40,870 nucleotides of DNA, from the IMG/VR virus record IMGVR_UViG_3300044953_000273, positions 1-40,870 of that record; one strand, written 5' to 3'. The translations under genes and the position numbers were made by a program. How positions within the stretch are numbered: the first letter of the stretch is position 1; each line of letters starts with the position of its first letter. The notes beneath the pieces are model-generated. The model was given only the letters and a program-made list of their open reading frames with translations. It had not been told where the DNA came from and made no database searches. Below, piece after piece: positions 20,651 to 22,128 of this stretch. Source of the DNA: a virus.

Positions 20651-20679
20651 TTGACACTTCTTTTTTTATCGCCTATAAT
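20651..20679 (+). promoter_or_regulatory. Consensus sigma70 early promoter
   Basis: TTGACA (20651-20656) and TATAAT (20674-20679) are separated by 17 bp, both matching consensus exactly. It drives the RAMA-like gene at 20706, with a start site near 20686. Confidence 0.9.
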
Positions 20680-20705: not shown

Positions 20706-21203
20706 ATGGCAAATTCAAATTTAAATTACGCTGAGTGGATTACAGATCAATATTTACATCACGCAGTTCAAAGTATTGATGCTAGACTTGGTAATGGGTA
20801 TGCAATTAAAAACCCTACCTTAATTTCAACTATGATTTGTTTAACCGCTCAAGAATTTGAACGACAAAATTCTTTGATTGAAGAAAAGGATGTAAAAAAA
20901 GTTTCAACAAAATACAATAAACCAAATTCACAATTTCAGTTTTTAAAAAATTCAACTAAAAAACAAAAACCAAAATTTAGATTTTGTGATTTTGGAATTC
21001 CACTTGGGGCAACCTTACATTATATAAATGATCCAAAAATTACTTGCGTTGTATCAAGTCCTAATAACGATGTAATTTTTAATGGAAAGAAGACATCTAT
21101 GAGTTCTATTGTAAATTATTTTTTAGGTGGATCTAAAAGAGGAACATCTTATTGGACCTATAATGGAAAACTTCTTGTTGATCTTTATAATGAAAAATAT
21201 TGA
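20706..21203 (+). CDS. RAMA-domain-like protein
   Basis: The protein has 165 residues. The N-terminal half is helical. The C-terminal 70 residues (about 95-163) match the RAMA pattern found on restriction-modification enzymes: DFGIPLGATLHYINDPKITCVV, then VIFNGKKTSMSSIV, and ending TSYWTYNGKLLVDLY. RAMA domains are predicted to read modified DNA or act near adenine methylation. It has its own consensus early promoter, suggesting an early role. The domain call is by motif only. Confidence 0.6.
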   Translation: MANSNLNYAEWITDQYLHHAVQSIDARLGNGYAIKNPTLISTMICLTAQEFERQNSLIEEKDVKKVSTKYNKPNSQFQFLKNSTKKQKPKFRFCDFGIPLGATLHYINDPKITCVVSSPNNDVIFNGKKTSMSSIVNYFLGGSKRGTSYWTYNGKLLVDLYNEKY

Positions 21204-21213
21204 AGATGATAAC

Positions 21214-21221
21214 TATAAATA
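21214..21221 (+). promoter_or_regulatory. Late promoter box after the RAMA-like gene
   Basis: TATAAATA matches the T4 late consensus exactly. Transcription would start near 21227 and produce a short structured RNA ending at the terminator, or reach the HNH gene by read-through. Confidence 0.55.
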
Positions 21222-21259
21222 ATAATACCTGACTTGTTCGCACCTTTCAGGTAAAGTTT

Positions 21260-21286
21260 GGGGGGCAGAAATGTCCCCCCTTTCTT
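21260..21286 (+). terminator. Hairpin terminator in the RAMA-HNH gap
   Basis: Six G (21260-21265) pair with six C (21275-21280) around a short loop, followed by TTTCTT. The T-tract is short. It lies in the loop of the larger 11-bp inverted repeat. Confidence 0.65.
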
Positions 21287-21287
21287 A

Positions 21288-21295
21288 TATAAATA
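21288..21295 (+). promoter_or_regulatory. Late promoter for the HNH homing endonuclease
   Basis: TATAAATA is an exact T4 late box. The expected start near 21301 falls at the right arm of the inverted repeat, so the late transcript lacks the left arm. Confidence 0.7.
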
Positions 21296-21320
21296 GTATT
21301 GCGAACAAGTTAGAGTAGAA

Positions 21321-22103
21321 ATGAATTATCTAAGAGTTTATTGTAATCTTATTAGGAAAGCAGAAAGTAGAATTGCTCCTAACGATTACACAGAAAGACA
21401 TCATATATTTCCTATAAGTATTTTTGGTAAAAATGATAAAATTGCTGTACTTACGGCACGAGAGCATTATATCGTCCACGCATTATTGGAAAAAGGATTT
21501 ATAAAGAGATATGGATTAAAAGATAAGAGAACTATTAAAATGATTCACGCTCATATTTTAATGAAATCAAAAGGTAAATATTATAATTCTTATCTTTATG
21601 AAAGTGCAAGAATTAGAATGTCTGAATCAAAGAAAGGTAAAAAACCATATGTTATGACTGAAAAAATTAAAAATAAAATGAGTAAATATTCTAAAAATAG
21701 AAATGAAGAGCACAAGAAAAAATTGAGCGAATCATTAAAAGGTAGAATACCTCCTAATTATGGAAAATTGCATTCTGAAGAAACTAAAAGAAAAATAGGA
21801 CAAAAAAATAAAGGTAGAAAAGTTTCAGAAGAAACGAGGAGAAAATTGAGTGAATGTAAGAAAGGAGAAAAGCATTTTTTGTATGGGAAGAAAAGAGATA
21901 TTGAAGTTGTAAATAAAATAGTGGAGAAAAAAAGTAAAAATTTTTCTATTATAAATCCAGATGGTGAAATAATTTATGGTAAAAATATAGCAGAGTTTTG
22001 TAGAGAAAATGATTTAGATAAGGCGACCATATGTAATATGCTTAATTATAAAAGAGGAATAAAGTCACATAAAGGATATCGTGCCGTTCCTCAAAATATT
22101 TGA
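21321..22103 (+). CDS. HNH homing endonuclease with NUMOD modules
   Basis: The protein has 260 residues. An HNH core is near the N-terminus (ERHHIFPISIFG, then LTAREHYIVHALL). Lysine-rich NUMOD3-like DNA-binding repeats follow (GRIPPNYGKLHSEETKRKIG, GRKVSEETRRKLSECKKG, and GEKHFLYGKK), and a NUMOD1-like C-terminal helix-turn-helix (IIYGKNIAEFCRENDLDKAT). It is free-standing, between the RAMA-like gene and uvsX. It probably cuts a homologous locus in co-infecting phages lacking it. Its stop overlaps the uvsX promoter. Confidence 0.88.
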   Translation: MNYLRVYCNLIRKAESRIAPNDYTERHHIFPISIFGKNDKIAVLTAREHYIVHALLEKGFIKRYGLKDKRTIKMIHAHILMKSKGKYYNSYLYESARIRMSESKKGKKPYVMTEKIKNKMSKYSKNRNEEHKKKLSESLKGRIPPNYGKLHSEETKRKIGQKNKGRKVSEETRRKLSECKKGEKHFLYGKKRDIEVVNKIVEKKSKNFSIINPDGEIIYGKNIAEFCRENDLDKATICNMLNYKRGIKSHKGYRAVPQNI

Positions 22104-22128
22104 CGGCACCAAAATTTTGTAGTATAAT
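22100..22128 (+). promoter_or_regulatory. Sigma70 promoter for uvsX
   Basis: TTGACG (22100-22105) overlaps the HNH gene stop, and TATAAT (22123-22128) follows after 17 bp. The start would be near 22135, only a few bases before the uvsX ATG, so the leader is very short. Confidence 0.8.

Follow-up and report, generated by a model that had tools for sequence, protein, structure and literature searches.

The window analysed is a whole virus record of 40,870 bases (IMG/VR IMGVR_UViG_3300044953_000273), a fragment of a T4-like cyanophage; in the DNA polymerase-uvsX-helicase region the isolates closest to it are myoviruses of Synechococcus and Prochlorococcus. On its forward strand, at 21321-22103, lies a 260-aa HNH/NUMOD3 homing endonuclease-like gene, flanked by a 165-aa gene on one side and by uvsX on the other. 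The homology expected of a free-standing HNH homing endonuclease is present (Pfam NUMOD3, 5.7e-24; PHROG homing endonuclease, 2.3e-32) and, judged by these matches, the predicted product is a member of the phage homing endonuclease group with NUMOD3 repeats. The 165-aa gene upstream (20706-21203) has only a weak PHROG match, phrog_1231 (1e-4), where the function is unknown; its C-terminal half looks by eye like a RAMA-type domain, which Pfam does not confirm. Further upstream, a sigma-70-type promoter-like site on the forward strand (20651-20679, TTGACA-17-TATAAT) matches the consensus at 12/12 positions and could be a source of early RNA reading towards the leader of the endonuclease gene.

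The leader contains an inverted repeat with perfect 11-bp arms, ACTTGTTCGCA at 21232-21242 and TGCGAACAAGT at 21300-21310. The helix reaches 14 bp with one G-U pair when the left arm is taken as 21229-21242 (CTGACTTGTTCGCA) and the right arm as 21300-21313, and in the predicted structure its 3' strand runs into the ribosome-binding region and ends about 8 nt before the start codon. The arms, a copy of TATAAATA in the loop between them and a second hairpin, ACCTGA/TCAGGT, had been pointed out in a sequence-only reading of the window, and all lie where that reading placed them. On folding, the 119-nt RNA reaches -40.3 kcal/mol, where its shuffled versions average -21.6 (z -5.9, 0/200 shuffles), and the RNA that begins at 21301 shows no unusual structure (z -0.7). 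Nevertheless, the significance of the 11-bp repeat is weak when taken from the window alone: repeats of this kind with arms within 100 nt occur at 8 loci, where 30 shuffles gave 2.1 on average and 7 at most, and TATAAATA itself occurs 4 times against 2.95 expected. Given this weakness, comparison with relatives was used instead. It is the comparative evidence that makes the inverted repeat real, and by sequence the repeat is part of a larger conserved device.

Three parts of this device were absent from the earlier reading. A further copy of TATAAATA at 21214-21221 forms a putative late promoter (promoter 1) at the 5' border of the unit, the copy between the arms at 21288-21295 being promoter 2. 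The ACCTGA/TCAGGT hairpin, here termed P1 (21227-21252), pairs 21227-21232 with 21247-21252, holds most of the left arm in its loop and is conserved by covariation. Between the arms, at 21260-21286, stands a G/C-rich predicted intrinsic terminator with a GGGGGG/CCCCCC stem and a TTTCTT tail; a terminator-like hairpin with a T-rich tail precedes promoter 2 directly in 60/63 leaders, compared with 6.6% of control stretches. From the predicted start of promoter 1 to the terminator, these parts would delimit a small antisense RNA of about 60 nt (21227-21286, forward strand), predicted to fold into two hairpins at -22 kcal/mol (z -2.6). The promoter, the 5' stem-loop with a seed and the intrinsic terminator that characterise a small antisense RNA gene are all found at the level of sequence, and promoter 1, P1 and the terminator together have the layout of a small-RNA gene some 50-70 nt in length. 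Across leaders, the predicted duplexes between each small RNA and its cognate mRNA have a median energy of -22.3 kcal/mol.

A protein search returned 24 virus contigs, and in the isolate S-SRM01 blastn located a leader of the same kind. A pattern fixing only promoter 2, TGC and the ribosome site matched 91 contig stretches, and nearly all of the 63 leaders among the matches listed have 12-14 of the 14 arm positions paired. When 88 leaders were chosen only on the small-RNA half, promoter 2 and a complementary arm followed in 82/88, with a mean of 12.5/13 arm pairs to their own partner compared with 9.3 to mismatched partners. A descriptor of promoter, P1 and terminator gave 104 matches, 100 of them with an exact complement of at least 7 nt downstream; three of the other four retain an arm that pairs through G-U or over a shorter stretch, and one is decayed. 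In total over 100 distinct leaders were found, the IMG/VR contigs in these counts not being independent samples. Two isolates match the leader model, S-SRM01 (6) and B23 (3), as counted from two scans of which one had stricter filters, and there was no match in the marine isolates S-SCSM1, S-SM2, P-SSM2, S-SKS1, RB11-B and Sf-FS3 or in the lake isolates S-CRM01, DSL-LC02 and DSL-LC03. At the Rfam gathering threshold no family, C4 included, was found at the leader, and at E<1 there were only weak matches far below the cut-offs. A literature search, with most subscription journals outside its coverage, found no paper describing such a small RNA.

Nearly all homologous leaders have arms that give a helix of 13-14 bp over the ribosome-binding region. 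Across 56 aligned leaders, some of which came from a scan requiring at least 11 pairs, 92.5% of the cells of this helix are paired, 13/14 pairs show double changes and the covariation score is 0.612 compared with 0.177 when shuffled and 0.04-0.10 when slid, which upholds the claim that the arms pair and cover the ribosome-binding region. In two sets chosen without regard to pairing, all 13/13 arm pairs are formed in 58/65 and in 54/88 leaders. Placed side by side, the arms differ in sequence between loci and the match within each locus is always kept; 58 distinct 9-nt arm cores were counted. This covariation would look the same whether the arms pair inside a single RNA or join two separate ones. 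P1 is paired in 96.6% of cells, with double changes in 4/4 tested pairs, and its pairs covary independently of the arm helix, with which it shares a CUG strand, such that the two structures partly exclude each other. The covariance model was built on the arms only and given no base-paired terminator, since in alignment A1 the terminator stems are shifted by one column between classes.

The two late promoters are conserved in different ways. Promoter 2 lies between the arms in 82/82 of the leaders selected only on the small-RNA half and is exactly TATAAATA in 79, consistent with the earlier proposal of a late promoter at this position that gives an RNA from about 21301 without the left arm. The right arm always begins 4 nt after the motif and the predicted +1 is G in 82/82; given this fixed arrangement, the mRNA would begin inside the complement of the P1 loop. 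Promoter 1 is looser, with A or C allowed at the second place: N[AC]TAAATA stands 7-8 nt before the left arm in 64/65 leaders (64 upstream contexts) that were picked by promoter 2 and the ribosome site alone, compared with 0.24% of control positions, and one further leader has the motif 14 nt from the arm by the 13-nt window used for the count. The base before TAAATA is A or C in 64/64 and never G or T. Sequence conservation begins abruptly at this motif, with none upstream. In T4 late promoters the motif is at -13 to -6. Both predicted start sites rest on this spacing, which is why the start of promoter 1 is placed 5 nt after its motif, at 21227, the first base of P1 and a purine in 64/64 contexts.

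The same preference is seen in S-SRM01, where NTAAATA before late structural genes has A or C at that place in 28/29. Over the whole S-SRM01 genome, NATAAATA and NCTAAATA are biased 91:7 and 21:7 by strand, and GTAAATA and TTAAATA, at 33:29 and 49:37, are without such bias. By these sequence counts N[AC]TAAATA defines the putative late-promoter motif of the S-SRM01 phage group. A late promoter NATAAATA has been described for S-PM2 (PMC2984593), and the A/C preference and strand bias of S-SRM01 fit that description.

The leader behaves as a mobile unit, here called the cassette. It precedes HNH/NUMOD3, GIY-YIG and endonuclease VII-like genes in 64 contexts, and some of the downstream proteins, for example that of S-SRM01 56059-56742, have no family match in Pfam or PHROGs. 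Given that 13 of the 58 arm cores are common to more than one gene family, leaders have been exchanged between nucleases. A record may hold up to six copies (six in S-SRM01 and six in one IMG/VR record), which carry different seeds except for one near-identical pair in a single record (G006), where one of the genes is truncated. The presence of the gene in some relatives and its absence from others at cassette sites is observed at the level of the family, not to the base at the window's own site. Gene-less relatives at several sites (for example L161, L156, L100, L087 and L102) have no TAAATA at the junction, such that promoter 1 came with the cassette there; at the L018-type and L165 sites, however, a native late promoter was already at the junction and promoter 1 is thus not always imported. 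At L165 (G001:57581-57685), ACTAAATA is found upstream and ATACTAAAAAG downstream of the gene, and the cassette seems to have been inserted inside the native late promoter.

It is suggested, as the most economical account, that this leader is a portable cassette controlling the homing endonucleases of T4-like cyanophages and that it supplies a late antisense RNA against the gene's own mRNA, a reading to which a probability of roughly 0.6 is assigned. Late promoter 1 would direct an RNA of about 60 nt, starting at the first base of P1, which would display the antisense seed in the P1 loop and end at the terminator. Late promoter 2, taken to be the stronger of the two, would direct the endonuclease mRNA, whose first 14 nt or so would be complementary to the seed and overlap the ribosome-binding region. 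Pairing of the small RNA with the mRNA 5' end would lower translation or stability and thereby keep endonuclease levels low during late infection. Transcripts reading in from upstream would mostly be halted at the terminator, and in any read-through past it the same arms would fold in cis and hide the ribosome site, as in T4 I-TevI. What the sequences show is the elements themselves, their covariation and spacing, the portability of the unit and its association with homing endonucleases. We infer that promoter 1 and the terminator are functional, that the small RNA builds up and acts in trans, and that it represses; the cassette probably keeps the endonuclease gene quiet. A lock in cis and a free RNA share the same complementarity, and the free RNA is favoured because promoter 1, P1 and the terminator are conserved.

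The sequence-only reading had likened the locus to T4 I-TevI, with early read-through RNA that carries both arms and is locked, and late RNA that carries only the right arm and is open. If this cis switch were the whole device, promoter 1, P1 and the terminator would be incidental or insulating. The layout is that of I-TevI, I-TevII, I-TevIII, segB and Aeh1 mobE, in which a late promoter lies inside a hairpin at the ribosome site (PMC2988022); the arms covary, an early-type promoter stands upstream, and a plain cis form occurs in the same phage group. That form precedes the endonuclease VII gene (gene 49) of S-SRM01 (L118:26123-26173; record ~126123-126173), where a hairpin of ~20 bp with TATAAATA in its loop (z -7) ends at the start codon. 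A switch in cis alone is possible but rather doubtful for the cassette: with a conserved late-promoter motif ahead of the left arm, late transcripts too would include that arm and with it the lock, and the covarying P1 and the inter-arm terminator would be superfluous for a cis hairpin, the gene 49 hairpin having neither of them and no upstream late promoter. Furthermore, given the terminator between the arms, most left-arm RNA should end before the right arm. The claim that early RNA carries both arms is left with a possible source, the upstream sigma-70-type site, and with a terminator in its path, and the claim that late RNA carries only the right arm holds for the predicted RNA of promoter 2 but not for that of promoter 1. 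A separate small antisense RNA accounts for the leader anatomy no less well than one early hairpin does.

A cis-acting attenuator or timing device, in which P1 would fold before the other structures and expression would depend on how often transcription terminates or reads through, with no free RNA, would make use of the CUG strand that P1 and the arm helix share in mutually exclusive structures and of the terminator between them. This is improbable, given that no conserved competing pairing able to open the terminator was seen in alignment A1 and that promoter 2, separate and strong, lies downstream of the terminator and would drive the gene in any case. It could also be argued that the arms are DNA sites, either an operator bound by the endonuclease or a recombination site, and that RNA pairing is a by-product; the cassette is mobile, and I-TevI represses its own late promoter by operator binding (PMC2988022). 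However, the arms vary freely in pairs, through 58 cores and with G-U pairs accepted, and the same core stands before unrelated nucleases in 13 cases, the opposite of how a protein binding site would behave. A DNA-binding site was rejected as the reason for the repeat on account of this free variation, and DNA sites of any such kind are a very improbable account of the arms.

Homing endonucleases must cut rival genomes without harm to their own phage, and the T4 solution is a timing hairpin. T4-like cyanophages appear, from their sequences, to possess a modular form of it, equipped with a dedicated antisense RNA and with different seeds per copy. Like I-TevI, segB and mobE, the cassette has a homing endonuclease gene, a helix over the ribosome site and a late promoter between the arms, and to this extent the likeness drawn earlier stands. 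Unlike them, it has a second late promoter upstream, a left arm in its own hairpin and an inter-arm terminator, and it is modular and common to several nuclease families. In a T4-type switch late transcription does not begin ahead of the left arm; the cassette has a late-promoter motif there in nearly every leader and is therefore described as a variant working partly alike. The T4 gene 49-type hairpin likewise has a late promoter in the loop of a start-hiding hairpin, and to one such plain hairpin the cassette adds an upstream promoter and a terminator. The nearest antisense analogue is the c4 RNA of phages P1 and P7 (Citron and Schuster 1990, as cited in PMC12197685). This antisense RNA is encoded on the strand of its target and upstream of it. 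The loops of c4 are complementary to the downstream ribosome-binding region, and c4 is cut from a transcript shared with the target. The cassette resembles it in having an antisense unit upstream, on the same strand and complementary to the ribosome site of the target, and differs in having, by sequence, its own promoter and terminator, a homing endonuclease as target and no match to Rfam C4. CfrI of cyanophage S-PM2, an RNA of ~225 nt antisense to an endonuclease gene and psbA (PMC2984593, PMC12197685), is also a cyanophage antisense RNA linked to a homing endonuclease gene; it is encoded on the opposite strand, unlike the cassette RNA of ~60 nt with its short covarying seed on the same strand. 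None of the I-TevI group, c4 and CfrI has all the parts of the cassette. If confirmed, the cassette would represent a widespread family of lytic-phage antisense RNAs, with more than 100 distinct leaders and two isolates, and could readily supply short antisense pairs that differ from one another.

A further possibility, for now speculative and on balance unlikely, is that every cassette has an antisense specificity of its own and that the small RNA acts in trans on any endonuclease mRNA with a matching 5' end, including that of a co-infecting phage, such that the seeds would form incompatibility groups. Were this true, copies in one phage would have to differ and leaders would be swappable between unrelated nucleases. 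Seed cross-pairing at or below -15 kcal/mol is found 4 times within genomes compared with 12.5 expected (p 0.011, uncorrected for the three thresholds and for relatedness), and at -18 (p 0.17) or -12 (p 0.25) it is not rarer than expected; avoidance between the seeds of one genome is only suggestive. The descriptor and small-RNA-half scans found no intact small-RNA unit acting on a distant gene or lacking an adjacent endonuclease.

Some leaders depart from the common form. Truncated remnants at L192 and L228 and a rearranged one at L203 hold only the promoter 1 and P1 part. An intact-looking leader at L160:390-611 precedes a truncated 38-aa frame, and its seed nearly equals that of L163 in the same record. 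The leader at L106:303-408 combines the left arm of one class with the right arm of another, with 7 Watson-Crick pairs of 14, and is apparently a recombinant whose predicted small RNA no longer matches its gene. A short hairpin with TTTATAAATA in its loop (GTATCCACACTTTATAAATAACAAAGTGTGGATAC) was seen at L063:3590-3640 (+). In the window itself, an 11/12 sigma-70-type promoter lies at the 3' end of the endonuclease gene (22100-22128), directly before uvsX; the endonuclease insertion seems to have brought along, or left intact, a promoter for the gene that follows.
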